The notes under the pieces were generated by a model. That model ran no database searches, had not been told where the DNA came from, and saw only the letters and a list, made by a program, of their open reading frames with translations. From Chloranthus sessilifolius (Eukaryota > Streptophyta > Magnoliopsida > Chloranthales > Chloranthaceae), in assembly GCA_021018995.1 (NCBI GenBank), contig CM037586.1, forward strand, positions 146,920,060 through 146,984,059: DNA of 64,000 bases, read 5' to 3'. This document shows, piece by piece, positions 1 to 62,425 of this stretch (the first letter of the stretch is position 1; each line of letters begins with the position of its first letter). Position numbers and translations under genes: made by a program.

Positions 1-112
1 ATTCACTAACTAATCGATAGCGATTTTTTAACGAATCGATAACGATTTATTAAATAGTCGGTACCGATTCTTTACATAATCGAGAGTGATTTATTATATA
101 TAACGATCATTT
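1..112. repeat. 22-bp palindromic array A1
   Basis: Degenerate units with the word TCG-N4-CGA (for example TCGATAACGA) recur every 22 bp or so, separated by AT-rich spacers. The array ends just before the splice acceptor at 149, so it lies in an intron of the ULP-like gene. It continues past the left edge of the window. Confidence 0.85.
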
Positions 113-767
113 TATTCTGTTGTTTACATGTTTCATTTTCTTTCAAAAGGTTCGCGCTCCCCTCGTGCCTCAGGGCTTTGAATTAGAGATACCCGTGTTA
201 AGAGAATATCTACGGGTTCAAAAGGAGGTTGGGGGGAAGAGGAAAGAATCGGTCAAGAAAGCTGTGGAAGAGATTCGGCCGAAGAAGAAAAGAAATTACA
301 TTCTACGAGAATGTTGGAGAGGAGAGGAAGAATGGGATGGGCGATCGACGAAGAAGAACCCCTCTCAAAAAGGGCCCAGTGCATGTGGAGAGGGCGGCCA
401 AGAACTAGGGGCCGCCAAGGAGAGCTGGCAAATGAAAGATAGCCCAGCTGAACCGTCCACCTCCAATGATTCTTTGTTGAGGAGGGTCGATCATTTGACG
501 CTGGATAACTTGAAGCTCACCCAAAGAGTGAGCGATTTGGAGGGAGAGAATAAGGCCCTGGCTAAATGTTGCGCTTCTTTAGAGAAACTATGCAACTCCT
601 TCAATGAGAGGCTGAATTCAAGGGATGGGGAGTGGCAGAAGTTAAATCACTACAACTATTTAGTCAGAAAGGGCCAGACTAATATTAAAGAACTCCTTGA
701 AAATTTATTGGAGGCGAGACCTAAGGTATGTGTTGAAATCTGATTTTAGATGTTCAATTTTGTTAAC

Positions 768-1005
768 ATAAATCGATATCGATTATATATAAAGTCGATA
801 CCGATAATATATTCAATCGTTATCGATTATATATGCAGTCGGTCTAATTCTATTTACAATCGATCGCGACTATATATATAATCGATAACGATCATATATA
901 AAATCGATAGCGACTATATATATAACCGATAACGATCATATATAAAATCGATAGCGACTATAAGTACAGTCGATAACGATTATATTTAAAATCGATTTGG
1001 ACTTT
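768..1005. repeat. 22-bp palindromic array A2 (intron)
   Basis: About ten units of exactly or nearly 22 bp. TCGATATCGA, TCGATACCGA, TCGTTATCGA, TCGATAACGA and TCGATAGCGA alternate with AT-rich spacers. It fills the intron after the coiled-coil exon. The matching intron in copy B (about 60175-60257) is short and has no array. Confidence 0.9.
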
Positions 1006-1684
1006 TTAAAATGTGGACCAAAAATTATTTCTTATTTTGCATCATTATTACGATGTACAGGAATTGGCTATGGAGGAGCTGATATTGAAGGTGTGCGACA
1101 CAACCTTCGATGAGGAACCATCAGCTCCTGCGCATTAGGTTCCTCCTCCTCCTCCCGTTGATGAGGTGAAGGCAGCTGCTAACAAGCAGCCTGAGACCCA
1201 AACTGATAAGGGTCCTGCTGGTGAAGAGAAAACCTCTTCCGAATTGCCTCACCAACAAGCTGAGCTTCGCTTAAGACCTAGGCAAGCGAAAGTCAGCAAA
1301 GTAATTGCCGTCAAACCTAAGGCCCAGCGAAGGATAGCGGCTGAAAAGAAGCCTACCGAGAAGGCCAGCAAAGGACCAACTGCTGAGCCTGGACCGGTGG
1401 CAGTCATTACCGCTGGTCCTGGGTCTACGGATGAAGATGCTCCTGCTGAGCTAATGAGCAAAATATATATGCTAGACATATAGAACAAGCCTCAAGGAGG
1501 ACGAGTAAGTTATTCTACCACGAATACTTAACTTTATTATTATATATTTATCGTGAAGATTAGTTGGCCATTTTTTATGCAGAGAATATGTTAGCACTGT
1601 CGGCAAGTATAAGCTGGTGGTGCAATCCTTCAGATGTCTGGCGGGAACTCAGTACCTGGATAACTTTGTAAGTTTAACATACTG

Positions 1685-1930
1685 TAGGCAAAATCGTTAT
1701 CGATGGCTTATGTAATCGTTATCGATGGCTTATGTAATCGTTATCGATGGCTTTTAGAGTCGATAACGATGGCTTATGTAATCGTTAGCGACTCTGTACA
1801 TCATCGATATCGATTCATTAGAGAGTCGATAACGATTTCGATGACTTAAATAATCGTTACCGACTCTCAAATAAATCGATATCGGTGACTTATAGAGTCG
1901 CTAACCATTATGTAGTTAACTCTAATCGCA
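1685..1930. repeat. 22-bp palindromic array A3 (intron)
   Basis: About ten units. The first three are nearly identical (TCGTTATCGA plus a 12-bp spacer), and one interval is 28 bp instead of 22. It lies between exon 1583-1667 and exon 1960-2239. The homologous intron of copy B holds array B3, which keeps the 22-bp register but has different spacers. Confidence 0.9.
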
Positions 1931-2954
1931 TATTTTAATCTAAGCGCATTGGTTTTGAGTTATGGGCGCCTACCTGAGACATTTGGAAGTTATTGATGAT
2001 AAAATTCATCCTGAGAAAGAGGTCAAAAACTTCCTTATGGACTCTGCCGCGCTGACGTACATGGGCTATGAACTGAGAGATTTCAACAAGTTCTCGCTTT
2101 TAAAAAATTATCTGACCAAATGGAGGTTCAAGTTCAAAGGTGGGCTGCCTATAGACAAAGAGAGACCGGAGGGAAGAAGCTGATGGAAACTTTCTTCTTC
2201 AATGAGCTTCGAAATCTGTGGGTTCACGAATGCAACATAGTATGCTTTTATCCTCTTTATAATTATTCTTTTTAATTTTTCTATCATACCCTTTGAGATT
2301 ATATTACTTTTTTGTAGATATTTATGCCAATACATTCAGAACAACCACTACACTGGGCGCTTGCGATCGTAACGTTAGTCGAACGATCGATAATGATCGT
2401 CGACCGTATATTTAATAGGCCCTCTAAGGAAATATATGTGTCCCAATTGCAGGCGCTGGTAAGATATTTTGCTTAGCATATCTTTTATCATTGTTAGCTT
2501 AACATATTTGACACTCCTCTCTATTATTTCGAAACAGACCCAATACCTTCCCATGATTTTATATTCGTACGATGACTCTGCTGCACTAATGAAGAAGAGT
2601 TATCCTTGGTCATCTACTGACTGCCGGATCAAAGCCGTCCCCTGACAGACCAACTCCTGTGATTGTGGAGTGTTTGTTGTAAAGTATATCGAATACTTTA
2701 CGATGGGGAAGAAATTTGACTTCGCGCAATCAGATATAGATAGGATCAGGGCAGAAATTGGTCATATACTGGCTACATACACAGGCGATGGCAGAGTACT
2801 GGCGAAGGATGACAAAAATGAGGGGGAGCAGTAGTAGTGTGGTTGTATTTGAATATTTTTATAATTGTAAATGAAATATTTTTTCTTAATGAATTATTTT
2901 GAATATAATTGCACTATTTTTATGTAGTTGTAGTTAAAAAGTAGAAATAGCATC

Positions 2955-3230
2955 CATTAGCGACTACATATATAGTCGTCATCGACTATATAAATAATCG
3001 GATTTACTGTATGTAATCGCTACCACTATATAACTAATCATTCACGATTCTTTAGGTAATCGATATCGATTTCCATATAGAGTCGCCATCGACCAGATAT
3101 CATAATCGATACCGATTCTTAAATGAATCGATATCGACTTTATAAATAGTTGATGGCGACTCTATATAGAATCGATATAAATTATTTATACAATCGATGA
3201 CGACTCTATGATACATCGGTAAAGACTATA
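2955..3230. repeat. 22-bp palindromic array A4 (between convergent genes)
   Basis: Units with TCG-N4-CGA words, more decayed than in A2 and A3, lie in the gap between the 3' ends of the ULP-like gene (2834) and the transposase gene (3304). Copy B has array B2 in the same place. Confidence 0.85.
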
Positions 3231-3303
3231 TTACAGTGTAAAAAAATATGGATTCTGAATTTCTCATTTACATTCAATCTATCATTATTAAAAATATATA
3301 CTG

Positions 3304-4143
3304 TTAGCCCATCGGTCCCACTGCCTTGCAGCTCCTGCGGTTGTGACCATATTCACTGCACCTGCTACACTGTAGTGCCCTAACCTCACCCTTAGACCTT
3401 ATCCTTCTTTTCCTCGGACGGTCGGCTTGCTTTCGACAATAATAGGGTGGTCTCACTTTCATATTTTCAGGGAGTTGCTCTGGTTGGAACTCCCATTGAC
3501 TTTTATCGAGGGTGGGAACCCATTGCTCGTCATATGTTTGTCTAAAGCAAGCGGTGAAAAACCAGTTCTCACAAAATTTATGGTAGTCGTAACTTCTTCG
3601 ATTGATGGCCGCCACGGCATGGGAACAATCGGGTTCGTAGCATCCGGCTGTCACTCGATAACTAGTGGTCCTCAAAGGCCGAATTTGAAAGTTTTTCTCC
3701 ACCGCGTGTTCTTTCAATGCTCTTTGAAATGTTTGTTTGTCTCGGAAGATCTCTCCAATTTTAAACGTCCAATTCCGATATTCAGTTTCCACCTCTTCAT
3801 CGGAGGAATCGCCCAATGTCTCTGACATTTCGTAATCTCCGTCTACTAGGGGATTGTCAATGTCTCTCACAAAAATTTTCGGATCATCTTTGATAAACCC
3901 ATCCGGTTCGCCTTCATATTCTTCTTCTAAGGTATCTTCATTCATGGCTTGAGGATGACTACCCCATTCACTAGCGGTGTTCTCGGGTGGTTGACTAGAT
4001 CCTTCATCGAAGGGGTTCTGATGTGATTGATCGGATCCTTCACAGAATGGATAATGGCGTGGTTGGCTAGGCCCTTCACCGAAGGGGTGCTCATATGTAT
4101 GGACATGGGGTTGAGTTACTCTGGTAATTCCCATCGATGGCAT
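3304..4143 (-). CDS. MULE transposase derivative lacking the catalytic domain
   Basis: This 279-codon frame opens with a Pro/Gly-rich repeat segment (HPFGEGPSQP, NPFDEGSSQP; residues 10-60) and an acidic stretch. It then has the MuDR-type N-terminal domain (about 125-175: WTFKIGEIFRDKQTF..LKEHAV, ending at GCYEPDCS). Next it jumps straight to the SWIM-finger tail (HAVAAINRRS) and the C-terminal zinc knuckle (CSRCSEYGHNRRSC). Copy B has the whole MULE transposase core between those points, so an in-frame internal deletion removed the DDE domain. ATG at 4143 and stop at 3304-3306 are intact. It could still make a DNA-binding protein without transposase activity, but nothing here shows expression. 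Confidence 0.75.
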   Translation of the reverse strand: MPSMGITRVTQPHVHTYEHPFGEGPSQPRHYPFCEGSDQSHQNPFDEGSSQPPENTASEWGSHPQAMNEDTLEEEYEGEPDGFIKDDPKIFVRDIDNPLVDGDYEMSETLGDSSDEEVETEYRNWTFKIGEIFRDKQTFQRALKEHAVEKNFQIRPLRTTSYRVTAGCYEPDCSHAVAAINRRSYDYHKFCENWFFTACFRQTYDEQWVPTLDKSQWEFQPEQLPENMKVRPPYYCRKQADRPRKRRIRSKGEVRALQCSRCSEYGHNRRSCKAVGPMG

Positions 4144-4158
4144 GGTAGAACATAAGTC

Positions 4159-4794
4159 TTAAGTAAACCAAGTTGTCCATCCACCGGGGAAGATATGACT
4201 GAAATCGTTGGTATCCACCACCCTTTCTGAAGTATAGTCTAACCATTGACTACATTGTTGTGACCCATGCATGTATTTTACTGGGTCATCATATGATTCA
4301 ATCGGAGCATCGTTTAAATCAAATGTTACTTTCCCTTTGCCATCGTTCGCCGCAATATAACCGTCATCGCTTAACGGGACGGTATCGTATACAATTTCAT
4401 CCTCAAACTTACATGACTGAAATGAATGAGACACAAAATCAGTCCCGCCGAGATTTACTTGTTCACCTTCAACTGGGAAGGATGACGGTTCCTTAATGAT
4501 GAATACTTTTATAACGTCCACTCCGGATTTATAAAACGTAAATAATATAGCCAAATCATCAGAGTCCAAAATGTCGGCAACCACAGGCGTATTCACTATC
4601 TTCATATGAAACTTTGTGGAAACTGTTTCATCCGCCTTCGCAAAACTGACAGCAGACATTCGCCTTATGAATTGTTCATAAGAAATTTCAATTGAAATGT
4701 TAATAAGCCTCCGCCGGCCACCTTCATACAAGCCATCATTGTTTACAAGAAGGCCATTATAGTGACAAAGAAGAGAAATCCTCACGTCCGTCAT
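4159..4794 (-). CDS. N-terminal PB1-like ORF of the MULE transposase gene
   Basis: The 211-codon frame starts MTDVRISLLCHYNG and has YEGGRRRLINISIEISYEQFIRRM, the form of the N-terminal domain found before the DNA-binding domain in many plant MULE transposases. ATG at 4792-4794 is the first in frame, just downstream of array A5. It ends at TAA in the same frame as the next ORF, with only a few codons between. Copy B has a stop at nearly the same place (after TTWLTHE). Either two ORFs are normal here, or a short intron or a common defect separates them. It is probably the start of the transposase unit. Confidence 0.65.
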   Translation of the reverse strand: MTDVRISLLCHYNGLLVNNDGLYEGGRRRLINISIEISYEQFIRRMSAVSFAKADETVSTKFHMKIVNTPVVADILDSDDLAILFTFYKSGVDVIKVFIIKEPSSFPVEGEQVNLGGTDFVSHSFQSCKFEDEIVYDTVPLSDDGYIAANDGKGKVTFDLNDAPIESYDDPVKYMHGSQQCSQWLDYTSERVVDTNDFSHIFPGGWTTWFT

Positions 4795-4864
4795 CGTCTG
4801 TTTAAGAATGAGAAGGAAGGGTCATAAGACTGATGAAACAAAAGAGAAAAGACGACTATAACTC

Positions 4865-5005
4865 TTAGTCGATTGCAAATACAATCGATATCGACTCTAT
4901 ATAGAGTCGATATCGATTGTGTATACAATCGGCATCGACTCCATATAGAGTCGATATCGGCTCTATACACAATCGATATCAATTGTGTATGGAGCCGATG
5001 ACGAA
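4865..5005. repeat. 22-bp palindromic array A5 (subterminal)
   Basis: About six units with words TCGATATCGA, TCGATATCGG and CGGCATCGA, spaced 22 bp. It lies upstream of the transposase ATG at 4794. Copy B has array B1 in the same place (25755-25925). Confidence 0.9.
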
Positions 5006-5417
5006 ATGCAGGGCCTTCTTCTGCGAGATACTGCATCACTAAATAACACTAATAAACTGAAAATGGGGTTAAGTAGGATACCTCTCGTCGCAAGGACAAA
5101 GTTCAGGGTCTTTTTGCCACAATGAAGAAATGCAGGGCCTTCATCTTCCAAGCCTCTGTTTTCTTCTTCGAAATAGCAGATCAGACTAAGTAAGGACACT
5201 CCGTCTAGGGTTTTACACCTCTAACTTTTTTGCAGGATAAAATGAGGAAGAAGACGATGCTTTGTTGGTTAAAGAAGGTCATAGAAGGGGATAATTTGGA
5301 CCTTTTACTCTCCTTAGGGTCGGCTAGGCTTAGAGCTGGTTTGTCTGGGTAAAAGTGAAACTATAGGGCTTCTGACGTAAAAGGCGTACGTGATAGGGCC
5401 GGTTAGATAAATTTCCC
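5006..5417 (-). other. MULE terminal region, copy A
   Basis: Read on the minus strand, this matches 25311-25700 of copy B. Both share GGGAAATTTA at the edge, CTTTTACGTCAGA, CTAAGGAGAGTAAAA, and a stretch reading CYFEEENRGL in one frame. It is presumably the terminal and subterminal sequence and promoter of the element. The conserved frame is short and has no known domain. Confidence 0.7.
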
Positions 5418-41222: not shown

Positions 41223-41250
41223 TTATCAGTGCACAACAGTAAACAGAAAA

Positions 41251-41286
<36 letters not shown>

Positions 41287-46100: not shown

Positions 46101-47081
46101 TTTTTCTCCCAAGAGTGGCGTTGAGTCTAGCATCTCATTGACCACGTGTATCACCTTATCCACATCGAAGTCTTTGCCAAAATGTGCTAAACAGGCCTCT
46201 AAAGGGTCCTCATATTCTGAAGAAAAAAATTCATTTTCCACAATGTCATCAATCATGCAAACTTGTGCATGTTCCTCATCTTCAGTAGGCTGTTTCGAAA
46301 TGTGAAAAATATTCAGTTCAACAGTCATGTTCCCAAATGATAAATTCATTATCCCATTTCGACAATTGATTAGAGCATTCGATGTTGCCAGAAATGGTCT
46401 TCCTAAAATTATGGGAACATTGTTTCTGTGTTGAAGAGTGGGTTCCGTATCCAATACAACAAAGTCAACTGGAAAGTAGAAAGTGTCTACTTTGATCAGA
46501 ACATCTTCGACTATTCCCCTAGGAATCTTAATTGACCTATCAGCAAGTTGAAGGGTCATAGCTGTGGGTTTTAATTCCCCCAACTCAAGTTTCTTGTACA
46601 CAGTGTATGGCAACAAATTGACACTTGCTCCAAGGTCTAGGAGTGCTTGATCGATGCTATTCTCCCCTATGATGATTGAAATTGTAGGACATCCAGGGCC
46701 CTTATATTTAATTGGGAGCCTCGCTTGTAGAACTGAGCTTACCTGTTCTGCTAAGAAGGCTTTCTTCGAGACATTAGTCTTTCGCTTTATCGTGACTAAA
46801 TCCTTTAGAAACCTCGCATATGCTGGCACCTGCTGAATGGCGTCTAGGAAGGGAATATTTATCTTTAGTTGCTTAAACATTTCAATGATTCCTTCCTGAT
46901 CGCGATTCTTCTTTGGTCCCACTAGCCTTTGAGGGAATGGGGCCTTGGGTATGAAGCTCTTCTCTCTCTCGCTCTTATCTTCCATCTTCTTCTCTTGCTT
47001 TCCTTGTTTCTCTTCTTCTCCTGCTTCCTTGTCCTTCTCCATTTCGACTTCAGGTTCATGCTTCTCCTCTTCTTCTGGCAT
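43119..47081 (-). CDS. Athila-like pol polyprotein, uninterrupted (1320 codons)
   Basis: Protease, reverse transcriptase, RNase H and integrase of a Ty3/gypsy element in one open frame. Protease shows [10 protein letters not shown] (about 149-158). RT runs from about 430 to 640 with [21 protein letters not shown] and the active site FMDD (600-603). RNase H shows CDASDY (749), TEKELLAV and TDHAALRY (815). Integrase has an HHCC-type finger (about 956-997) and the acidic residues in GVDFMGP (1026), ISDGG (1085) and GQVEVSNRE (1121). All expected catalytic residues are present. Its ATG is not the native start: comparison with element 1 shows gag running in frame into pol, and one A is missing here in an A-run near 47085, so this ATG simply opens the shifted remainder. 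Expression is not shown. Confidence 0.92.
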
Positions 47082-47089
47082 TTTACTTT

Positions 47090-48787
47090 GTTGTCGACTT
47101 CCTTCCCAGATCGCAATGTAGTGATAGTCTTGATCTGTTGCTGGCTCTCCTCCTGAGATGAGGTCGAGGCATGCTCAATAGCCATCTGTCCTTATGGATT
47201 TGGGACTGGTTAGCTTGGGAATGATCCCTTCTCTCTCTCGCAGAGGAGTGTCGCCAGTTGCCCAAGTTGTGTCTCTATCCTTGATATCGAAGAGGTATTG
47301 GATTGAATGAACTTCCACATATCCTCACTCTGAGGATATTGATTTTGGTGCTGGCGTGGCGCAGCATTTCCTTGTTGATTATTGAATCCTGGTGGAGGAA
47401 AATTTTGTGCAAACCCTGATTGACTTGTTGATTGTGAGAACTAATAATTCTGATTCAATTACCTAGGTTGCACATTTTGATTTTGATTTGGGTAAAATTG
47501 GTTTCCTCCTCCATAGTGATGTTGGAATTGTCCTTGACCAAACTGTTGTTGTGGTCCCTGACTGAAATTTTGATTTGGGTATAAATTCATCCCTTGACCT
47601 CTGCCTTGGGGTCTTTGATTTCCCTGTTTCCATGAGAAATTCTGATGATATTTCTAACTATTTGGATTGTTTTCATTAAAAACATTTCTCTGATTCCGCC
47701 CATAAGTGTTCAATGCATTCAATTGTTCACTAGGATCTTTTGAGTAAGTTTGCAGTGACGGGCAACCGTCGGATGTGTGCATTGGACTCGCACAGTATGA
47801 GCATGGATCTGGTTGTACATTTACAACACTCACATTTTTCTTCAATTTCAATTCCTTAATTTGTTGAGCGAGGAAATCAATTTTTTTCATCAGGTCGGGT
47901 GTTTCTTTCACCACATACAATCCTCCTTTCTTTGCTGAGCTTCCTGCTTGATCTCGATTCTTCTTCGGCTGATCTCGACTGCTAGAGAAGTCCCATTATT
48001 GTGAATCTTCCGCTAACTTTTTCAGGAATTGATAAGATTCATTTTCTCTCAATCCCAAGAATCCTCCACTGTTCATGGATTCAATCAAATGTCGATTAGC
48101 TTGATCCAATCCGTTGTAAAAACATTTGACCAATCTCCATTTTGAGAATCCGTGGTGAGGACATTTCAATAAGATATCCATGAATCTATCCCAGGCTTCA
48201 TAGAATCTTTCATCATCTTCTTGTGTAAAGTCGGTGATTTCACATCTTAAGGCATTAGTCTTAGCCATGGGGAAGAATTTTGACAAAATTTTCTTAATCA
48301 TTTGATCCTAGGTGGTTATGGATCCAGCTAGTAAAGAGTTTAACCATGCTTTGGTCATATCCTTTATAGAGAAAGGAAATAGACATAATCTCACAGATTC
48401 TTCACTGAAATTTTGATGTACCGATGAGCAGACTTCAACAAAGTCTTTGATATGTTGATATGGATCTTCTCTATCCATACCATGAAAAATTGGTAAGATT
48501 TGTATCACATTGGTACGGATTTCGAATCTGCCACCAGGTGTGGCGAGATACGTGATGTAGGATGGAGTATTAGTAGTAATTGGGGAAAACAACTCCCTCA
48601 GGGTTGGTTCCTCCTCATTTTCATGATGTTGATTTTCACAACCGTTTGCATTCATTTTGAATTGAATTGATGGTTCGGTTCTTACTTCTCGACCTGTTCT
48701 AACTTCTTTTCGATTTGAACTACACGTTCGCTCAATCTCAGGATTCAGAGATTCTAAAAATTTATCTCTAGAAGATCTTGTGTGCAT
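47090..48787 (-). pseudogene. gag of Athila-like element 2, broken by stops
   Basis: Opens near 48787 (MCMHTRSSRDK), with EEEPTLRELFSP, IQILPIFHGMDREDPYQHIKDF and YEAWDRFMDILLKCPHHGF, as in plant gypsy gag. A short CSYCASPMHTSDGC knuckle and a Gln/Asn-rich tail follow. In-frame stops replace Trp after GSITT (48310), Gln after EDSQ (47995), and others near 47655 and 47450. Most fit single C-to-T or G-to-A changes. Joins pol through a one-base shift near 47085. Confidence 0.85.
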
Positions 48788-48837
48788 ACACAAAGTGTAA
48801 AGAAATTTTATTTTTATTTTATTTTATTTTTTTTAAG

Positions 48838-49040
48838 AGTCGATTAATCGACTGTTTAGGTCGACTGATCGACCAAGAGAAGAGTCGATTGATCGACTGT
48901 TTAGGTCGATCGATCGAGGATTCAAAATCTGAATTTTAAATTTTTTTTTTAATTCGAAAAATCCATAATCCGGAGATTAAGCGAAATTTTTGCAGATTCT
49001 GGAGGGTCGTTTGATCAACTGTTTTGGTCAATCGATCGAC
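48838..49040. repeat. GTCGATTGATCGAC words in the leader of element 2
   Basis: Four words in 48838-48920 at about 20-22 bp pitch (AGTCGATTAATCGAC, GGTCGACTGATCGACC, AGTCGATTGATCGAC, GGTCGATCGATCGA) and two weaker ones near 49005-49040. Same position as 30240-30445 in element 1. Confidence 0.88.
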
Positions 49041-49184
49041 ACTCAAAGAAAGAAATTTTTATTTTTATTTTTTTTAATTTTTTATTTTTTTTTTTAAATT
49101 ACTGAGTTCAAACCTACAAAAATTCTTAAAAATTAATTTTCTATTTTCCAAAAATTTTGTAATTTTCTACGCCCAATCACTATC

Positions 49185-51028
49185 TGATGTGTGGATTAAG
49201 TTGTACTCGCAAGTGCACGAATCGTGATGTAGTCAGTGGGTGCAAAGTACGAGATCATTCCCACGATGATTGGTTAGAAAATTTTAAATCAAAAATAGCA
49301 ATTAACTAAAAGAATTTTCACAGATCTATCATAGTAACCAACAACTTAGAATTTTGAGAACTTCTGATAAATGAGATAAATGCTAACAAATAAATACTAA
49401 CTGAATTTAAGAATTAAACAATTAATGAAAGATAAGGATTGGGATGCTAAATCCTCCCATCGTAGGTTTATCATTTACAGAATACCAATCTGTGGATTGA
49501 GATGTGAGATCTTTAACAAATTTCTCAAAAGAAGCATTGCCCCATACACACGTGAGTTCTAAAATATAGATCTGAGATCACGAAGATGTATGATTAACAT
49601 CCCATGAGTGTATGATTAACACTCACACCTCGGACAACATTTAGAACCCAATCTCTAGGGTGATTTCCAAAGTACGATCTAAGATCAAGGAGATGTATGA
49701 TTAACACCCCATGAGTGTGTGATTAACACCCACACCTCAGATAGTGATTGGAACTCACCACTGGGATAAAGTCACACTATCAATCCGAAATCAAGGAGAT
49801 GTATGATTAACACCCCATAAGTGTGTGATTAACACTCACACCTCAGATGATAGTAAAACTTCACCCCGAGATGGGTATAATTATGATAAAATCATTATTG
49901 CAGATCTAAAATCATAAGGCATGATTAGCTCCTAGATCTTAGACTGAAATAATGATTTCACCCTTTTCAATGAATATTAGGGTCTTAAAAAGTATTTGAC
50001 ATCTCAATCACACAGATTTATATTAATATAAATGAATACCTCGGATGGGGTTCATTAGATCCCCATCCTTAATGAAACTAGCCACACATAATTGAAATAA
50101 GTAATAAAATAAATGCAGAAGTTGAAAATGCCATTAAAATACCGTAAAGAATTATCCACAAAAATCTACGAAAGCTTTAATCCAAAGTACGTACACCTCC
50201 TTCTTGAAAGTGGATCCAAAATCAGAAAGACTAAGACTTATCTTCTTCTCAAAATGAATATTAAAAAGGTAGTTCAAGAAACTGGGACTCAATGCCCTTA
50301 CACGTTGAAAAGCAGAAGACTAAAAATAGAAGAATGCAGAAAAATGAAAACTCTCCGTCCACAGAACAGAAGACCCCCCGAATGAATATATCTCCAAGAA
50401 TATATTTCCCCCTAATTGCCAAAACAGAAGCCGCTTTTTCCTCCTTGAATCCAAGATTTTCTTCCGTGAAAAGAGTACCGAGATTCTTGCGGCCAAAGAT
50501 AATTCCGAACTCAAATGTAAACTTGGTCGATTGATCGACTAAAGAGGGTCGATCGATCGACCATATCAGATTCTATTTTAGAAATTCCAAATCATCCGGA
50601 TTAGGTCGATCAATCGACCAAAAAGGGTCGATCAATCGACCTCCCAGATTTTCGTGAACTCCCGCTACACTTTGTATCAGACATTGCCTCAATATTTTGG
50701 CCATAACTTTTTATCCCGAAGTCAGATTGAGGCAATTTGTGCGGCGTTGGAAAGCTAACGATGAGCTCTACAACTGTTGTGTTTTGATAATTTTCTGAAT
50801 CGGACGTCTTGAAGGTTAAAATTGAGCTCTAAGTAGGGATAAGTTCCGAATGATCCAAGGTAGCACGAATTTGACGTTATATTCTGAACTTTTGGGTTAT
50901 TTCATGCTCAACGCATCTCCAGGCCTGTAAATCACTAAAACTATATAAAACATGTTAAATGGCTTTCATTGGGTAGCTAAATGTAGGTCTTTAGGAGTGA
51001 AATATTATCATATTTCACTGGACATCAT
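49185..51028 (-). repeat. 5' LTR of element 2 (right copy)
   Basis: It is 1844 bp. It has palindrome words at 50524-50645, including the 22-bp unit missing from the left copy. The sequence just outside it (49160-49184) reads GATAGTGATTGGGCG on the element's strand. The tRNA-Asp primer site seen in element 1 is absent there. Confidence 0.93.
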
Positions 51029-53359
51029 TCTCCTACCGGCGAATGTCATTTGGGCTTTGCAACGCACCAGCCACCTTTCAAAGATGCATGCTAAATATAT
51101 TTTTGAACATGGTGGAGAGATTTTTGAAAGTCTTCATGGATGACTTCTCAATTCACGGGGACAATTTTAATAATTTCTTGTATAACCTATCTCTAGTTCT
51201 TACGAGATTTCAGGAAAAGAATCTTGTTTTGAATTGAGAGAAATGTTATTTCATGGTTCAGAGTGGTATAGTCCTTGGACACATCATTTCATCCAAAGGC
51301 ATTGAGGTGGACAAGGTGAAAGTAGATTTGATTTCAAACCTCCCGCCACCCAAAACAATCAAGGAGATTAGGTCTTTCCTTGGGCATGTCGATTTTTATC
51401 GACGATTTATCAAGGACTTCAGTAAGATTACAAAACCTCTATGCAACTTACTTGGTAAAGATGTCCCATTCTTTTTTGAAGAGAAATGCCTGAAAGCTTT
51501 TGAGGTAATCAAATCTGAACTTGTTCAAGCCCCAATGATCCAATCTCCGGATTAGAATTTACAGTTTGAGATATGTGTGACGCATCTGATTATGCGGTAG
51601 GAGCAATACTGGGACAAAGGATGGATAAAATTTCGCATGTAATTTACTATGTAAATTACACGTTGAATGATGCACAATTGAATTATTCCACCACAGAAAA
51701 TGAACTCCTAGTTGTAGTCTTTGCACTAGATAAATTTTGATCCTATTTGGTGGGATAAAAAATTGTGATGTTTACGGATCATGTGGCTCTTCGCTACCTC
51801 TTTGCGAAGAAGGATGCAAAAGCCTGTTTGATCCAATGGATTTTACTTTTACTAGAGTTCAATCTAGAAATTAAAGATAAGAAGGGATCAGAAAATGTGG
51901 TGGCTGACCATTTATCTCGAATTATTGTTGAAAAATCTGACGATCTAGCCCCGATCTTGGAAAACTTTTTCGATTAACAATTGTTTGCTATCGAATATTC
52001 ACCATTGTATGTTGATCTGATTAACTATTTGGTGACGGATCAAGTACCACAGCACTGGAGTAAGAATGAAAAAGTTTTTTCTAGCACGAGCAAGGCACTA
52101 TTTTTTCGAGGATTCGTACTTGTTTAAATATTGCGCCGATCAAATTATCAGAAGGTGCATTCCGAAATCTGAACAGTCAAAAGTTATTTCATTCTGGATT
52201 CTATTGGCCGACAATTTTCAAGGACTGTCATCAGCACTGTATGTCATATAGTAATTGTTAGATGTTAGGTAGAATTTCAAAGAGAAACATGATGCCCTTA
52301 AATTGAATTTTTGAGGTTGAAGTGTTTGATGAATGGGGAATAGACTTTATGGGCCCATTCCTGAATTCTTTTGGGAATTCATACATCCACGTTGCAGTAG
52401 ATTATGTTTCAAAATGGGTCGAAGCAATAGCCTACAAGACTAACTATCACAAGTTGGTTGTTAAATTCCTTAAGAACGTGGTATTTCCGAGATTCGGTAC
52501 ACCACGCGCTATCATTAGCGATGGTGGAAAGCATTTCTGCAACAAAGTTTTTACTCAGTTAATGAAAAAGTACGGGATCACGCACAAAGTGGCTACACCA
52601 TACTATCCTCAAACTAGTGGGAAAGTTGAGGTTTCAAATCGAGAGATAAAATATATTTTAAAGAAAACGATAAAGCCTAATCAAAAAGATTGATCGTTAA
52701 AATTGAACGACGCACTTTGGGCTTATCGGATGACATTCCAAGCTCCCATTGGAATGTCCCCTTTTAGGATGGTCATTGGTAAAAGTTGTCATCTACCTGT
52801 TGAGATAGAACACCGGGCCTATTGGGCTATCAAGTCTTTATATTTTAGTTTGAAAAAAGCGGGTGAGAAGCAAAGCTTAGAAATTGCTGAATTGGAAGAA
52901 GTAAGGGCTGATGCATACGACGGTGAAAAATCTTACAAGGACCGCATGAAGCGTGCCCATAATCAGTTTATTTTAAGAAAATCATTCACTGTGGGTCAGA
53001 AGGTATTGTTATACAACTCAAGGCTTCATTTGTTTTCAGGAAGGCTTAAAACCCGATGGAATGGTTCATTCCAGGTAAACCGAATATTTTCGAATGGAGC
53101 AATTGAACTCTGCAATCCTTGAAATGGGAGAAAATTTTGACTCAATGGACAACGGGTGAAACCGTTTTTAGAAAATATCATCCAAAATTTTGATGAAGTT
53201 GCATTGAGTGATCTCGACCAATCGAGATGAAGTTAAAAATTTTGAAATGTCGGGCTAGCGACACTAAATTTAGCGCTTCTGAGGAGGTAACCCAAGTGTA
53301 CAATATCAAAAAAAAAAAAAAAAAATTCCATTTTCGAGTAATTTTGTGAAAAAATTTTA

Positions 53360-53545
53360 ACGGTCGATTAATCGAGCCAAAATCTCAATTAATCGACCCT
53401 TTAAAAAACAAAAAGAAAAGGGAGATGGTGTCTCTGTTAGGATGGACACTTGATTAATCGATTAATCAAGGTGCTATAAAGTCAACGCATGTTGATTTAA
53501 CTGGTCCATTGATCGACCACTTAAGTCGATCAATGGATTGAGCAG
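53360..53545. repeat. TCGATTAATCGA / GTCGATCAATGGA words after pol of element 1
   Basis: Decayed palindrome words (GTCGATTAATCGAG, AATTAATCGACC, TTGATCGACC) sit in the spacer after pol, matching the position of arrays in element 2. Confidence 0.7.
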
Positions 53546-53750
53546 TTTTCGGAAAATAATAAATATATATGATATAAAAAAATTCGTACAAAACCTTTTT
53601 AAATTTAGCAGTTTAATGTTTTAGGACTCTTCGTTCTCCTTAGTAGGACTCTTTTAGATGTTTTATAACTCCTCTATTTATTTCAAACACTCTTAGGATT
53701 TTTTCATTCATGTCATCATAATTCAATTTTCTCCACGCTATCAAGCATCA

Positions 53751-54109
53751 ATGGCCGACTGAATCTATCGCACTCGAGTGACCATGAAAAAGATGGAGGA
53801 AACTGCCAAGAAGAGGGTAAGACATAATGGACCACCAGTTCCATTCATCTCACTAACGTAGATGTGGTGGAGTTTGATCCAGTGCCTCTTCAAATATGGG
53901 AAGAACTAGCGAAAAAGAGGACCAATCGATCAGCTAAGCCCACGCCAATCAAATTAGATAATATTGAGATGATTGATATGGATCCATCTACTCTACCTCT
54001 CCCTTATGTGACTCTGGATTCCTCTAATCCTGGCTGTATCACCGAAGCGATGTGAAATTTTGCTTTTCCAAAATCGAAGCTAGAATCAAGACACGATACT
54101 GATTCTTAA
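53751..54109 (+). pseudogene. Small conserved ORF between pol and 3' LTR, element 1
   Basis: Translates with a stop at codon 4 and another in the middle. It shares KKMEE..KKR, QIWEELAKKRTNRSAKPTP, NIEMIDMDP and a NFAFPK ending with the minus-strand ORF at 40811-40274 of element 2. Both elements keep it, so it is a real part of this family. No known domain; basic and Pro-rich. Function unknown. Confidence 0.65.
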
Positions 54110-54342
54110 AGAGGATGTTGAAATATCTTGAGGCTTTTTAGGATGGTTTAGGATTTATTTTATGATTTTTGTTTGTTTTTCTTTATTTTGTGATTTTTGC
54201 TTGTTTTTAGGAAGATTTAGGTCTTATTAATTTCTGTTTTCCAATAAGTGTAAATAGCACATCTTAATTAATAAATTTTTCATTATTTTCAATTATGCTT
54301 TTCACCTCCTCCTTGCCTCTTAGTCTGTACAAATTTTGATGC

Positions 54343-54406
54343 AGGTTTGGGGGTTACACCTCAATTTCGGTACAGTGAAGACATTGCACAGATTAGGTTT
54401 GGGGGT
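54343..54406 (+). promoter_or_regulatory. Paired internal purine tracts, element 1
   Basis: AGGTTTGGGGGT occurs at 54343-54354 and 54395-54406. The same 12-mer is next to the 3' LTR at 56269-56280. Element 2 has the same pair with the same spacing (40066-40055 and 40012-40001, minus strand). Confidence 0.75.
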
Positions 54407-56268
54407 GGTAAATGCATACTTTTTTATTTTTATTAAAAAATAATAATAATAAACAAATAAAAATAAAAAATAAATAAATATTAATATATATATATATATT
54501 CGGATTTAGTCGATCAATCGAGCTCTATGCCTCGATCGATCGACTCTGCACTTTGAAGATTTTTTCCGAAGAATTTTATTTTATATAATTGATTTGTAGA
54601 ATTAGAAATTATTAAATTATAAAATCTCACAGGAATAATATTAAGTGCCATTTTTTTATCATTGCTATTAGGAAGGAAAAAAGACAATGTGGGGATTAGC
54701 TTATAAATTTGAACTCACCTCTAAAAAAGTCATGATGTTTGACTCAGTTCGAAAACTAAAAATCAAGAAAATTTATCGAAAATTGTGAACTGAAGGATCT
54801 TAGTGGAAATTAAATCCAAGTGAGCTCTAGAGCCAATTTCACGTCTTTGATGAGTGCTTACATAGACTCGGAGTTATCTTTGAATACGAATTATTTTTGC
54901 ACAATCTCATACATTTTGCTTTAACTTGTTACTTTGCATGACATTAAATTCATATCATTGTGCTAGAACATATCGTATATTTGTTCAAAACAAATAGGAA
55001 AAGTTACCATCTTTTGAGGACGTGGTTGAAGGCCATCTTTGGCTCATTTGTGCTTAAAATATCCCACCTTATATAAATTTATCCTTCTAGTACCCCTTCG
55101 AGCTTATTAAAAATTTGATTTTATATATTCTTTGATAAGTCACATTAACCTTTACCCTTTCACCAATTCTAAAAATTCAACCTTATCCTTCTTATTTCTG
55201 AGAAATTAGGAACGAGGGATGAAAGTGAAAGAAAAAAGAGTAAGTGGAGAGATACCGAATTGTGGTGTCTACTAAGAGTCTATAGCCAAAATATTTTAAA
55301 AAAAGGGAGAAAAAGAAAAATATGAAAAAGAATGAAAAATATTAGGTGCTTTAAGAAAATAAAATTCAAAAGAAGAAAAATGAGTGAGAAAGGAAAAGAA
55401 AGTTCAGAAAAATAGAAAAATATTGAGAAAGATAGCGAGAGATAAAAAAAAAAGAGAGAAAAGAAATAGAAAAATCATAAGTTAGTTTATTTTCCAATTT
55501 CTCATAAATTTTGAATCCCAGTTTCATTTCTTTGAAACCCTTACCTGAGCCCCATTATAACCCTACAAAAGACTTTTATGATCCGATCTTGCATTGGTAA
55601 CTGCCTTGTGGAGAGTGAATATGTGATGCCTATGGTACCTGATATGACATGCTTAGGATACACGAGTATCTATTCTTATGAGATTATTTTTATTCATTAA
55701 TTACATCGTGTTTCTCTTATCATGTGAGACTTTTTATTTGCTTTGTATTAATCCCTCACATGTGTGTAAAAATATACCCATCATCAGAGAATTTCTATTT
55801 TGAGAGTATACCTATTGTGAGGCTTGAATCAAAATATAAATCTATACGGTTCACAAATATGATAAATTTTCAAATAAATAGAATTCGGTCTGATGATTAC
55901 ACGTGACACATCTAAGGATGGGTGATGAATTTATCTGCAAATTGAAGCATTGACTTAACTTAACTAATTATCAATGAGAATGACATGACATGCATATTGT
56001 TTAAGGAGAAATTGCATGATAAAGGCAATTAACAAATCTCACGAGAGTCAATTATAGAAAATGTCTTGAAGTTTGTGGGTAACTTCACTGAAAACCCTCA
56101 GGAGATAAAACTCCTCCACTAGGGATCACCTAATGGTTTAAAGGCTTGTTGCATACGCTAAATGCAATCGTGTTCTCTACGAAAGTGACATTATTTACTT
56201 TTCTTAAGTTGTTAGTTTATTTTTCAATTTTGTTTATCTTCTCTTTTACTCGAGGACTAGCAAAGTGT
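54407..56268. other. Non-coding 3' spacer of element 1
   Basis: No ORF. It holds a (TA)n-like stretch near 54482-54500, palindrome words at 54508-54545 and a GA-rich block at 55210-55480. It matches the spacer of element 2 (35731-37353), reversed. Confidence 0.7.
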
Positions 56269-56280
56269 AGGTTTGGGGGT
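56269..56280 (+). promoter_or_regulatory. Polypurine tract, element 1
   Basis: AGGTTTGGGGGT ends one base before the 3' LTR start (56282), the expected plus-strand primer site. Confidence 0.85.
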
Positions 56281-56281
56281 G

Positions 56282-57800
56282 TGATGAGTAGTGAAATATG
56301 ATAATATTTCATCCCTAAAGATTTAAATTTAGCCCTCCGATGAAGGCTATCTAATGGAATTTGTGAAGTTTTCTAAGTTTCGGGTAAAATTGGTCATTGG
56401 ATGCATTAAGGAGTATAAAAGAACGTAAAGTCAACAAACACCAAAACACTGAAGTAAACCCTAACTATTCTGTTATGTCGATCAATCGACCCCCAAGGTC
56501 GATGCATCGACATAACAACATAAGTTTTAGATTCAAATTCGAAACCAAATCTGGTCAATTGATCGACCACTTAAATCGATCAATCGACTAAGTTCAAAAT
56601 TTGAATTCCAAACCCGTTTAAATATAATTAAGAAAAATCTCTAAAGATTCAGGGGGATCCTCTCCTTTTTTCATGGTTGTTTTTGGCTTTTGAGTTTCCG
56701 AGGGCATTCAGCGGGGGTTCCAGTTTTTATATTATTCATTTTCCTTTAGCAAAAAGAGGGGGACTAGTTTTCATTTTATGCACTTGTGAAAAACGATTGT
56801 ACCAGATTTGGATTAAAGTTTTTTATGAATTTTGTTAAAGCTCTTTACGGTATTTTAATATCATTTTTAATTCCTATTTTTAGTTTATCATTTCTTTCTA
56901 TTATGTGTGGCTTGTTCCATTAAGGATGAGGATTTACTGAATCCCATCCAAAGTAGTCATTTATCATAATGTAAATTTGTGGTTGAGATGTTAGATTCAT
57001 TTAAAAGGCCCTAATGTTGTTATTGACAATGATAAAATCTGATTGCAATCTGAGATCTAGGAGCTAATCATGCCCTATAATCTCAGTCTTGTAATAATAA
57101 TTTTATCCTAATTATTGCCCATCTCGAGGTTAAGTTTTACTACCGTTTGAGGTGTGAGTGTTAATCATACACTCATGGGATGTTAATCATACATATCCGT
57201 GATCTCAGATTGGTGGTGTGACTTTACCCAGTGGTAAGTTCCAATTATCATCCGAGGTGTGAGTGTTAATCATATACTCATGGGATGTTAATCATATCAT
57301 ACATCTCCTTGATCTTAGATCAATAGTTTAGAATTTACCTAGAGATTGGGTTTTGAATATTGTCTGAGGTGTGAGTGTTAATCATACACTCATGGGATGT
57401 TAATCATACATCCCCGTGATCTCAGATCTGTATTTTAGATTTCATGTGTGTTTGGGGTGGTGCTTCTTCGTAGATATCTTTTGAAGATCTCACATCTTAA
57501 TCCACAGATTTGTATTGCACAAATGATAAACCTACGATGGGAGGATTTAGTATCCCAATCCTTATCTTTTATCATCTGTTTAAATTTTAATTTATTGTTA
57601 GTACTTATCTCACCCTCAAAATTCTCAAGTTTTTAATTAGAAGATACTGTGATAGATCTGTGGTTATTCTTTTGGTTAATTGTTATTTCTGATTATCATT
57701 TTCTAACCAATCGTCGTGAGAACGATCTCGTACTTTGCGCCCACTGACTATATCACGATTTGTGCACTTGCAAGTAAAATACATATTTAAAATCACAACA
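56282..57800 (+). repeat. 3' LTR of element 1
   Basis: It is 1519 bp and matches 28588-30084 with many point differences. The palindrome array near 56475-56590 has one more unit than the 5' LTR (ATTGATCGACCACTTAAATC is extra around 56555-56580). Confidence 0.93.
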
Positions 57801-58094
57801 GAGACCATCATATAATTGTCGAAAGCAAGCCGATCATCCGAGGAAGAGAAGGATACGGTCAAAGGGTGAAGTTAGGGCCCTACAATGTGGCAGGTGCAGT
57901 AAGTATGGTTACAATCACATGAGTTGCACGACAGTGAGATCGATGGGTTGATAGTGTATTAGTGATAGATGGAATGTAAACGAGACAATATATATTTGCT
58001 CAAAAACTCAAAATCCCAATTTTTTTGTTTTGTAATAGTTGTAATTTTAGACTGTATTGTTGCTCAAAAACATGGAACATGGAATGTACAAATG

Positions 58095-58240
58095 AGCTGT
58101 CAGCGACTGTGTAGATAGTCGTTGACGACTTTATATATAGTCATTGATGAATGTATATAGAGTCGCTGATGATTGGATATATAGTCGATAGCATCTCTAT
58201 ATAAATTCGATGGGGACGATATATACAGTCGATTGCAACT
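58095..58240. repeat. 22-bp palindromic array B2 (between convergent genes)
   Basis: Decayed TCG-N4-CGA words (for example GTCGTTGACGAC, GTCGCTGATGA) at 22-bp pitch in the gap between the transposase tail (57951) and the ULP-like gene end (58388). Confidence 0.85.
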
Positions 58241-59224
58241 TCATTGGAAACTTAACTTAGTTGTGATTAAATTATTAACAGTAACAACTAAAATTTGAAT
58301 ATGCACAATTGAAATTCGATTGTACAGAACATAATTTATATTACAAATTATCATATATTTAAATTTTCAAATTAGAATTCATTTATATTACAAATTTGAG
58401 GACGGAACCACTGATACTTCTTCACCAGGGTCTTGCTCCAATTCTCCTCCTCCATCGTCGGCGTATTTAGCCAGGGTATGACCAATTTCTTCCCTGAACC
58501 TACTCATATCTGATTGCGCGAAGTCAAATTTCTTTCCCAACATGAAATACTCTACATACTTCAACACAACCACCCCACAATCACTCGAATTGGTCTGTCG
58601 AGGAACGAATTTGATCTGGCTATCACTAGATGACCAAGGATAGGTCTCCACGTTCAGTGCAGTCGAGTCACCGTATGAATATAAAATCGCGGAAAGGTAT
58701 TGCGTCTTTTTTAAAATAGTAGAATGTCAGATATGCTAAGCTAACAATGATGAAAGATACGCTATAAGCAAAATGTTATACTAGTGTTTTCAATTGGTCT
58801 GGATATCTTTCCTTAGAGAGCCTATCAAAAATAGGGTCAACGATCAATATCAATCGTTCGAGTAACTTCACGATCGTAAGCGCCCAGTATAATGGTTGTT
58901 GTGATGAATTGGGACAAATATTTACAAAAAAGCAATATAATCTCAAAGGGTACGATTGAAAAAATTATGAAGCAAAAATTATAAAGATGTTTGAAGCATA
59001 CTATCCCACCGTTCGATTTGTATCTCGAATAATTTCTTGTACAATTTTTTAATAAGAAAGAATTTGTTAAAATCGTTCAGTTCAAAGCCCATGTAGGTCA
59101 GAATGGTGGGACACATAAGGAAGCATTCCTCCTTTCCATTAGGATGAATTGAGTCATCAATGACTTCCAAGTGCCTCAAGTAGGCGCCCATTATCTAAAA
59201 CTAATACAGTTACAATTAAGGAAA

Positions 59225-59495
59225 TAAGCGACATTCAAAAGAGTTGTTAACGAGTCTGCATTTAGTCGTTGACGACTCGAAATAGAGTCGGTACCGACTA
59301 CATAAGTAGCCGTCATCAACTCTAAATATAATCGACGCCACCTCCAAAGGAAATCGATATCGATTCTTTTTAGAGTCGATAATGACTGTATAGAGAATCG
59401 ATGACAATTACATATAGAGTCGATAACGACTGTATGAATAATCGATATCGATTCGTTGTAGAGTCGATATCGACTCTATATAGAGTCGTCAACTA
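59225..59495. repeat. 22-bp palindromic array B3 (intron)
   Basis: About twelve units in a regular 22-bp register (TCGATATCGA, TCGTTATCGA, TCGGTACCGA, TCGTCAACGA). It occupies the intron homologous to that of array A3, but the spacers are different. Confidence 0.9.
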
Positions 59496-60894
59496 ATTTA
59501 TATTGTCTATTTGGTACTTACAGAAGCAATAATGAAATAAGTTGTAAGGTTACTTTACTTATAATATTATCCAAATACTTCGTGCCCGCCAAACATCTGA
59601 AAGACTGCACCACCAGCATATAATCACTGACGGTGCTTACGTAGGTGTTGCATAAATAACGGTCAACCTAACTAATTTTCGTAAAAAATTAAAAAATAAT
59701 AAACTAGGGTAAACTACTACTAACTAATTATCATTCCTGAGAAGAATGACTTCCTCGTCCTTAAATTTAGGCTTGTTCCATATTTCCATCATGTATTTCT
59801 GCTCCGCTGTCAGCTCAGCAGTAGCATTAGCCACTGGTCCTTCAATGGCCTTCTCCATTACAAGCTTTTTTGTCGTGGCCCCCTTTCGATGTGTCCTAGG
59901 TTTGACGGTAATTTTTTTCGCATATTTCCCTTGCCTAGGTCTCAAGCGAGGGTCAATTTGTTGTTGAGGCAATTGGGAAGAGGTTAGCTCTTCACCAGCT
60001 GGCCCTTATCGGCTTGAGACTCAGGTTGCTCGTCAGCAGCTACCGACACCTCATTCGTGGGAGGATCCTCATGCACGAGAGGAGATGGTACCTTATCGGT
60101 GGGCTTTTCCTTGGATGGTCGGATATCAAAGGTTGTGCCAGACACCTTCGATATCAACTCCGAAATAGCTGCATCCTCAACATCGAATATAACCTTATTA
60201 AAATTAGAAATTGGCTCGAATTATATTCACTTATACAAACTATGTTACAACACATACCTTAAGTGTCGCCTCCAAAACATTTTCAATAAACTCTTTCAGA
60301 ATCCCCTGGTCCTTTCTAACCAACATGTTGTAGTGACTAATTTTCTGCAACTCTGCATCCCTTGAACTGAGTCGCTCATTGAAGGAGTTGCATAATTTCT
60401 CTACGAAGTTGCAACGTGTCGCGAGAACCTCATTCTCTCGCTCCAAATGGCTCACTCTTTGGGTGAGTTTCAAGTTATCCATCACCGGATCGTTGATCCT
60501 CCTCAACAACGACTCATTGGAGGAGGTTGGTGCAACTGGCCTCTCCTTCGTGGCCCCCCTAGTTCTCGGCCGCTCTACATAGACGGGCCCCTCTTCCGAG
60601 GACGATTCTTCGTCCGACGTCGATTGGACGCCAAATTCTTTCTCATCAATATTAGCGACCAGAATATAATTTCTCTTCTTCTTCGGTTGCACAACTTCCA
60701 CAGTTTTCTCGACCGATTCATCCGCTTCGTGGACCTCTTTTCTATTCCCCCCAACGACCTTTCGACCCGTAGATATTGTCTTAGAACGGGTAGCTCTAAC
60801 TCAAAGCCAATAGGTACAAGGGGAGCGCAAACCTTTTGAAAGAAAAGGAAACACCCATAATAAAAGTTACTAAACTGATAATATATTCTAAATA

Positions 60895-61300
60895 CAAGGT
60901 ATCGACTCTTTAATATGTCATTATCGACTAGTTACAAAGTCGTTATCGATTATTTACAAAGTCGTTACCGACTATATACGAAGCCGTTAACGACTCTGTA
61001 TGAAATCGGTATCAACTATTTACGAAGTCGGTATCGACTCTATAATAGATCGTTATCGACTCTGTATGAAATCGATATCAACTATTTACGAAGTCGGTAT
61101 CGACTCTATAATAGATCGTTATCGACTCTGTATGAAATCGGTATCAACTATTTACGAAGTCGGTATCGACTCTATAATAGATCGTTATCGACTATTTACG
61201 AAGTCGGTATCGACTATTTACAAAGTCGTCATTGACTCCTTAATGAATCGGTATCGACCCTCTATGAAATCGCTATCAACTCGTTAAGCAGTCGATGGTT
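60895..61300. repeat. 22-bp palindromic array B4 with 66-bp higher-order repeat (intron)
   Basis: The longest array, about eighteen units. From 61015 to 61205 three 22-bp units form a 66-bp repeat (GTCGGTATCGAC, ATCGTTATCGAC, ATCGGTATCAAC) present in nearly identical copies. Because 66 is a multiple of three, open frames run through it by chance. It lies in the intron before the coiled-coil exon, as array A1 does. Confidence 0.95.
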
Positions 61301-62264
61301 GAATTCAATCTATATCCTTAACTTTATAAATTTGAATTATCAAATAGACATTATACCTTGCTATTCAACATCTTTCCGTAAGTGTAGCCTTTGATCCTCG
61401 ATTGCGCCTTGTCCGACCATTTCAACAATCGTGGGAAAGGGTCCTTAAGGGTTGTCCGTACAAGCGAGATTTCTAGCAGCATCTTGTAAGCCCACCATTA
61501 AAGTACATATATGCATCCATATGTGTTATACACCTTGAAGCCTTTATCCATTTCGGCAGTCTTTCTATTCACCACGCCCTTCATTATATACTCGATCAAG
61601 TCATGGTACACATGGAGACCCCACAGAGTTCGATTGAAGTTCTCGACGTCATCGATAAGGTCGACGTGGTCTTCCGCCAGTTGATGGTGGGACCCGAGAA
61701 AAAAAAATATACACAGCACAAATAGAAGAGGCAACTTTACGAAGTCGTCATCACTTTCCACTCACCTAATTGCACCATCTATATAAGACCGAAGAATTTT
61801 TTCAGTAGGTATTCTACGAAAATATTTGTATCAAATGGTTTGTTCTTCTGGTGGTTTAACGGACGGGTTATACTTTTCGAGGTCAACTACGGCAAGGCTC
61901 AATATCAATGCAATGTCCAACTTTCAAAGATAGACATCAGACTTTCCAATTCGAAAGTGGTTTTTTTTTATCTAAAAAGTCAACATCTCATCAACCACAT
62001 CTCCAAGAAATCTCACACCCTTAGGAATTTGAAATATTCTACCAAAAACTGATGCTCTCAACAACTCCTTTCGCCTTGAGCTAGCGTCTTCATAGAGATT
62101 CCAAATGGCACTGGGAGAACATTTGGCAACAGTCCGGTGTACGACCATCTTGACAGCTTAATAAAATGAACTGTAATAAAAAGAAATGAGTGAGTCCCAT
62201 ATTAACACGAATTGTTTAAATTTTAAATGAACTGTACTATATAATCAAGCGGAGATAATGATAT

Positions 62265-62425
62265 CAATTATATATATAGTTGATATCGATTGTATATACA
62301 ATCGTTATCGACTATATATATAATCGATAACGATCGTATATACAATCGTTATCGACTCTATAGACAGTCGATAACGATTGTAAATATAGTCGATATCAAC
62401 TATATATATAATCGCCTCGTCGGAT
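62265..62425. repeat. 22-bp palindromic array B5 (upstream of the ULP-like gene)
   Basis: About seven units (TTGATATCGA, TCGTTATCGA, TCGATAACGA, TCGATATCAA) at 22-bp pitch, upstream of the ULP-like ATG at 62148. Confidence 0.92.

Follow-up and report, generated by a model that had tools for sequence, protein, structure and literature searches.

Palindromic CpG ladders with a two-turn step in a TIR-type Mutator-like transposon family of Chloranthus sessilifolius: candidate targets of a VANC-like protein

The DNA analyzed here (the window) is a 64,000-nt stretch of the Chloranthus sessilifolius genome (GenBank assembly GCA_021018995.1, contig CM037586.1, positions 146,920,060 to 146,984,059), and it carries two copies, A and 2, of a Mutator-like transposable element (MULE) whose non-coding parts are occupied by tandem TCG-N4-CGA palindromes (Table 1). 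The host family is a Mutator-like transposon of the terminal inverted repeat (TIR) type with 9-bp target duplications. These duplications are exact in all three full-length copies, A (8,119 bp), C (9,224 bp), and G (9,589 bp), of which C and G are located on contig C1; the duplication is also exact for locus C1a and matches at eight of nine positions for C1b. A common 56-base terminus, taken as a query from copy G, is present at both ends with 1 and 5 mismatches in copy A, 9 and 9 in copy C, and 0 and 0 in copy G. The second copy named in a preliminary description of this sequence is a single element interrupted by a 29-kb insertion, which has TG...CA ends and the same short duplication on both sides, and the array at 25755-25925 is therefore part of copy 2.

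Table 1. Features of the two MULE copies and of the inserted long terminal repeat (LTR) retrotransposon DNA. Positions are those of the window unless prefixed L016; ORF, open reading frame; PMD, plant mobile domain.
Feature	Position	Strand	Remarks
Copy A	L016:7299 to window 5417; window part 1..5417	+	complete TIR MULE; target duplication AAAAGACAA on both sides
PMD/DUF1985 exon, copy A	L016:9040-9834	+	first of the gene's domain segments
Array 1	14..100		inferred intron before coiled-coil-like segment; extends upstream into L016
Coiled-coil-like coding segment, Ulp1-type gene, copy A	150..725	+	within ORF 90-743
Array 2	773..996		inferred intron
Array 3	1694..1909		inferred intron; seven in-register sites, then a 28-bp step
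C-terminal Ulp1 (Peptidase_C48) segment, copy A	2646..2831	+	PF02902, 9.3e-9, 35.9 bits (cutoff 20.7)
Array 4	2956..3225		between two convergent genes
mudrA, copy A	3304..4821	-	two adjoining ORFs; DBD_Tnp_Mut in one
Array 5	4869..5004		subterminal, 5' of mudrA
Copy 2, mudrA side	25311..28587	-	one terminal inverted repeat at 25311
Array 6	25754..25918		subterminal, copy 2; six exact sites, all TCGATATCGA
Insertion splitting copy 2	28588..57800		LTR retrotransposon, probably several nested; 5-bp duplication GAGAC
TCGATNNATCGA ladders, ~19-22 bp step	38836-39273, 40981-41197, 42560-42960, 48839-48917, 50527-50639, 54510-54543, 56478-56587, 28784-28816		in LTR insertion
Extra ORF of LTR element	41654-42313	-	PF20167 (putative plant transposon protein), 2.2e-6, 28.1 bits, below cutoff 45
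Copy 2, Ulp1-type gene side	57801..62430	-	left end missing, cut at about 62430
Array 7	58104..58235		between convergent genes; largely degenerate
Peptidase_C48 segment, copy 2	58400..58726	-	4.8e-10, 40.1 bits
Array 8	59260..59490		inferred intron
Array 9	60898..61290		inferred intron; 17-18 units; 66-bp higher order too
PMD/DUF1985 exon, two pieces, copy 2	61354..61761	-	78% and 71% identity to copy A exon
Array 10	62255..62414		inferred intron 1; about 7 units

TCG-N4-CGA sites occur 63 times in the window, compared with a mean of 8.76 and a maximum of 18 in 100 first-order Markov shuffles; 55 lie inside the ten arrays, and eight are scattered. The same shuffles gave a mean of 0.01 and at most one pair at exactly 22 bp, where 31 were observed. 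The preliminary description had reported ten arrays with a strict 22-bp step, and "strict" is nearly right: 31 of the 45 neighboring steps within the arrays are 22, nine are 44 or 66, and five are off register (43, 28, 84, 23, and 23). The array at 58095-58240 contains one exact site, and its remainder is degenerate. Taken as a whole, the 22-bp unit is loosely palindromic, with A and then A or G before TCG, and C or T and then T after CGA. Among 116 internal units, which were picked by their neighbors without regard to their own state, 85 were intact; in the columns of TCG and CGA, the commonest base made up 86-97%, compared with 29-86% in the other sixteen. The dinucleotides at the inner side of the half-sites pair almost independently over 183 sites (AT/AT, 46 observed vs. 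55 expected; AT/TT, 38 vs. 32; GT/GT, 6 vs. 2.4), which fits a site made of two half-sites. The A and C groups use these dinucleotides in somewhat different proportions (chi-square 35.3, 7 degrees of freedom, with sites that are not independent). C-type copies (C, L030, L032, and L034) have recurrent 16- and 6-bp steps, from sites in a shifted register next to a dyad, e.g., TCGACTGCGA; an extra half-site at 6 bp therefore recurs in these copies.

The phase is a property of the whole genome. Across 2.17 Gb, 39,345 pairs of TCG-N4-CGA stand at step 22 (reversed-pattern control, 144), compared with 1,959 pairs at steps 16-21 together (control, 2,515) and 1,362 at steps 23-28 together (control, 545); step 22 therefore exceeds the average of the twelve other steps by a factor of over 100. 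Fifteen array loci were sampled, all on contig C1, comprising seven first-listed clusters and eight hand-picked places drawn from a list that favors off-register pairs. At 14 of the 15, the arrays are inside one MULE family, rather than being missing from other copies or belonging to a microsatellite found equally outside transposons, two of the outcomes that the preliminary description had set against its own proposal. Eleven of the 14 loci were assigned by long matches, eight of them against array-masked copies and three (C1a, C1c, and C1g) with each other and with copy A. The short elements at C1b, C1d, and C1f were assigned by a terminal repeat, present at both ends of C1b and one end of C1d and C1f, together with common internal sequence. 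Array positions recur, eight among A-type and eight among C-type copies, with not all copies covered at every position, and they correspond to inferred introns, the interval between the genes, and regions near the ends. The exceptional locus, C1e (G000:C1:2423149-2423355, in L025), has TCG-N4-CGA in short hairpin-like units outside any recognized MULE copy. It is reminiscent of AT9TSD1, an element unrelated to VANDAL that bears VANC6 motifs according to extracts of PMC5735166.

The arrays avoid conserved coding sequence. In copy A, the conserved ORF segments, which were picked by eye from ORF lists for this copy only, add up to 4,406 bp and contain none of the 50 sites; all 50 fall within the remaining 3,713 bp. 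Random placement in exons, a further outcome that the preliminary description had set against its proposal, was thus not seen in copy A. Isolated sites are present in coding sequence of sister copies (one in the mudrA part of copies C and G), with no ladder there. Stops in all six frames close 21 of the 33 arrays with at least three sites; taken alone, this is no argument against coding in the remainder. Exons were also sought by inter-copy protein similarity, which placed 41-44 of 44-51 sites in "exon-like" matches, mostly non-collinear; that approach was unusable, since translated arrays produce matches to one another.

The left gene of the element (plus strand in copy A) consists, in order, of a PMD/DUF1985 exon, a coiled-coil-like segment, and a last exon with an Ulp1-type C48 domain, and is followed by a convergent mudrA gene. 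Based on order and strand, we infer that the three segments are exons of one gene, and it is this gene that hosts most array positions. PMD in the copy A exon scores above cutoff (4.9e-9, 36.3 bits; cutoff 34.9), and C48 was detected in all three last-exon segments scanned (4.8e-10 to 9.3e-9; copy C, 1.6e-9). For the coiled-coil-like segment of copy A, neither the match to HAUS5 (1.5e-5, 24.5 bits, against a cutoff of 25.6) nor that to bZIP_1 (0.0078) reached its cutoff. An AlphaFold2 model of the PMD/DUF1985 exon, built on a four-row alignment, had a mean predicted local distance difference test score (pLDDT) of 40.8, and none of 130 candidate homologues of the copy C exon reached E <= 0.001 in a protein collection that is perhaps poor in plant proteins. 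In mudrA of copy A, DBD_Tnp_Mut was recognized (PF03108, 2.2e-7, 30.9 bits; cutoff 25), and the Pfam scan gave no match to the MULE (DDE) domain in either ORF. Copy C carries that transposase domain (PF10551, 1.8e-16, L023:2134-2844). Copy A thus seems to be without the DDE part of the transposase, yet in the segments of its Ulp1-type gene the reading frame stays open for long stretches.

Kin copies have a mean divergence of 8-10% outside the arrays. Homologous arrays vary in site number between these copies (the last array of the A group, for example, has 3, 11, 9, and 10 sites), and when copy A was aligned with copy G, 27 of A's 50 sites were kept, 10 were lost, and 13 fell in gaps. Spacers at homologous positions, which the preliminary description called unrelated between the two window copies, can be aligned within each subfamily, where they change roughly twice as frequently as the core. 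With a reference-site design, in which the compared pair is not chosen by its own state, the ratio of core to spacer column divergence was 0.35-0.54 in the A group and 0.35-0.56 in the C group (95% bootstrap), and gap-free 130-bp contexts in the A group (84 observations) gave 30/504 changes in the core and 110/1008 in the spacer, although CpG is a mutable step. In the A group, CpGs are retained in other copies at 322/336 positions in sites versus 808/890 outside arrays, a higher retention in sites. As pairwise means, the ratio of nonsynonymous to synonymous divergence (dN/dS) was 0.57 for the PMD exon in the A group (five copies), above the 0.40 of mudrA, 0.72 for the coiled-coil-like segment, and 0.49 for the DDE ORF; for the C48 exon, no pair was long enough for an estimate.

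These patterns of phase, position, and column conservation suggest that the ladders are probably maintained protein-binding sites. We judge it about as likely as not that their reader is the PMD/DUF1985-Ulp1 protein encoded by the element and that it acts in anti-silencing. The predicted ligand would be the product of the array-bearing gene itself, with its PMD/DUF1985, coiled-coil-like, and Ulp1 parts. Each 22-bp unit would present two inverted half-sites, A-R-TCG-N-Y, about one dyad axis; with one such unit per two helical turns, a two-fold-symmetric binder could align along one face of the DNA, and we infer that the reader binds as a dimer. By analogy with VANC proteins, the non-coding gaps, once loaded, would keep off or strip silencing marks across the whole element, and the outcome of array reading would be anti-silencing. 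Short non-autonomous relatives with terminal repeats and arrays may benefit in trans. If this is true, sequence-specific anti-silencing extends beyond the non-TIR VANDALs, and directional motifs are not required for it. A palindromic CpG site held at a two-turn phase would also give a sharp prediction for how the reader is seated on DNA and for its methylation sensitivity, and with 39,345 site pairs, the family is large enough to follow the co-evolution of site, reader, and host silencing.

Known systems provide close parallels. In extracts of Hosaka 2017 (PMC5735166), VANC21 binds YAGTATTAY repeats, all in one orientation, in the non-coding parts of VANDAL21; repeats of this type turn over fast, with changing copy number; VANC proteins carry DUF1985 and DUF287; and the transposase VANA is better conserved than VANC. 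Set against these extracts, the present MULE resembles VANDAL21 and VANDAL6 of Arabidopsis in having a transposase and a second gene (here with a sub-cutoff match to DUF1985), in the repetition of short motifs in its non-coding DNA (introns, the intergenic part, and the termini), in the fast change of array copy number, and in a second gene that is less conserved than the transposase. Extracts of a 2026 review (PMC13317346) describe Ulp1-bearing VANC genes (KIU) in non-TIR MULEs that recognize motifs in kin elements and whose Ulp1 domain is strongly conserved in eudicots. An Ulp1 part in a MULE gene, and motifs in the non-coding parts of kin elements, are shared with these KIU/Kaonashi-type genes, but the latter belong to non-TIR VANDALs, whereas the motif here is palindromic. 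The copy A exon, which passes the PMD cutoff, is also like plant mobile domain proteins; in the portion of PMC7156037 considered, MAIN and MAIL1 are host genes that aid silencing of transposable elements, unlike the PMD here, which is part of a transposon gene with an Ulp1 part. The element has a layout and domains in common with VANC-bearing elements, but it has TIRs and a palindromic, phase-locked site, and we therefore class the system as working like VANC without classing the element as a VANDAL. An open-access literature search found no paper joining Mutator-like elements, palindromic 22-bp tandem repeats, and anti-silencing.

Several observations weigh against a VANC-like reading of the ladders. 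DUF1985 scores below its cutoff of 35.1 bits (copy C, 5.5e-7, 30.1 bits; copy A, 16.6 bits), an 87-aa piece of copy 2's PMD/DUF1985 exon matched no Pfam family when scanned alone, and DUF287, a component of VANC (PMC5735166, in part), was not matched in the protein pieces scanned, which did not include the spliced full protein. Whereas YAGTATTAY is non-palindromic and in one orientation in the extracts of PMC5735166, the present motif is a palindrome of 10-14 bp with two CpGs and a fixed 22-bp step, and VANDALs are non-TIR elements in the parts of PMC5735166 and PMC13317346 considered, unlike this MULE with its TIRs and 9-bp duplication. Misalignment of units could inflate the contrast between core and spacer, and the gap-free contexts of the C group (core 7/42, spacer 28/84) amount to seven observations, which is too few. 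The divergence of CpGs is not lower inside sites than outside arrays in either the A group (20/336 vs. 44/890) or the C group (7/28 vs. 928/4568), and CpG retention in the C group (20/28 in sites vs. 3414/4568 outside arrays) is not higher. The dN/dS of the PMD exon in the C group (three copies) is 0.86, which indicates little constraint. Finally, a second CpG dyad ladder in LTR-retrotransposon DNA is unexplained by a MULE-specific reader. The earlier suggestion of a VANC-like system in another MULE group is partly supported, in that the array-bearing gene has a PMD/DUF1985 region and an Ulp1 part, but CpG ladders are not unique to this MULE.

The TnpA protein of En/Spm, a member of the CACTA superfamily, binds short subterminal repeats of its transposon and activates its methylated promoter. 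The present arrays are likewise short repeats in a transposon, whereas En/Spm belongs to another superfamily and its repeats are subterminal. By comparison with these repeats, the ladders might instead be bound by the MURA-type MULE transposase or a transposition cofactor for end recognition, and the DBD_Tnp_Mut domain, the subterminal arrays near both ends, and the short non-autonomous relatives that retain terminal repeats (both ends of C1b, one end of C1d and C1f) together with arrays are all compatible with this. Most array positions, however, are far from the ends, in inferred introns and between genes, and we regard end recognition as an unlikely function for them.

The second ladder is built from TCGATNNATCGA (TCG-N6-CGA), which occurs 45 times in the window, 43 times in the LTR insertion and twice at 19.5 kb; 43 of the 45 sites are outside the eight ORFs checked. 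Genome-wide, steps 21-22 account for 86,751 pairs, where the reversed control has 0, and steps 23-28 together for 3,157, where it has 1; this spectrum covers steps 21-28, and steps 19-20 also occur in the sequence examined locally. In the LTR element at 38-49 kb, pol occupies 43119-47174 on the minus strand, and the extra ORF listed in Table 1 is also present. Two-turn CpG ladders may therefore be a wider phenomenon. A host CpG-reading protein or chromatin factor, captured by dyad ladders that evolved independently in several classes of transposable element, is favored by the abundance of TCGATNNATCGA pairs and by the position of most window sites in the LTR insertion and outside the ORFs checked, but the two ladders have different centers (N4 versus N6), and at 14 of the 15 loci sampled the N4 ladder belongs to a single MULE family; we consider a host reader of this kind improbable. 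A speculative alternative, to which we give little weight, is that unrelated classes (TIR MULEs with TCG-N4-CGA at 22 bp and LTR retrotransposons with TCGAT-NN-ATCGA at 21-22 bp) convergently built non-coding two-turn CpG-dyad ladders, each read by a transposon-encoded protein with a plant-specific domain (PMD/DUF1985-Ulp1 and the PF20167-like extra ORF, respectively) to block or erase CpG methylation. The LTR-retrotransposon ladder makes such convergence testable within the same genome. Among the papers listed in a search of the open-access literature, none dealt with CpG dyad ladders in LTR elements, judged by title and the start of the abstract. Other CpG-rich repeats were seen in the window: tandem 22-23 bp repeats of GAGCGGTCACTTGACCTCGCTC with CTCGAGCG palindromes at 22962-23088, another two-turn repeat, and 21-bp repeats around ATCGGCCGAT, likewise a CpG palindrome, at 11862-11932 and 12766-12807.

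It is also rather improbable that the MULE arrays are a neutral minisatellite, spread by slippage and copied along with the element. Their tandem structure, the change in copy number between copies, the 66-bp higher-order repeats, and CpGs that are no less divergent inside sites than outside arrays are what such a minisatellite would produce. Against this stand the conservation specific to the TCG and CGA columns, a register that survives across decayed units (the 44- and 66-bp steps), and the recurrence of arrays in both subfamilies, at eight positions in each.

A role as long RNA or DNA hairpins, whether as a source of small interfering RNA or as cruciforms, is very improbable: the 176-nt array at 25741-25916 folds at -103 kcal/mol (z -19.9) and array 1685-1930 gives z -11.8, but palindromic-unit arrays fold in this way in any order, and 31 arrays compared with shuffled unit order showed little excess in inverted self-identity (mean z 0.51; above 2 in three) or in energy (mean z -0.48; below -2 in four).

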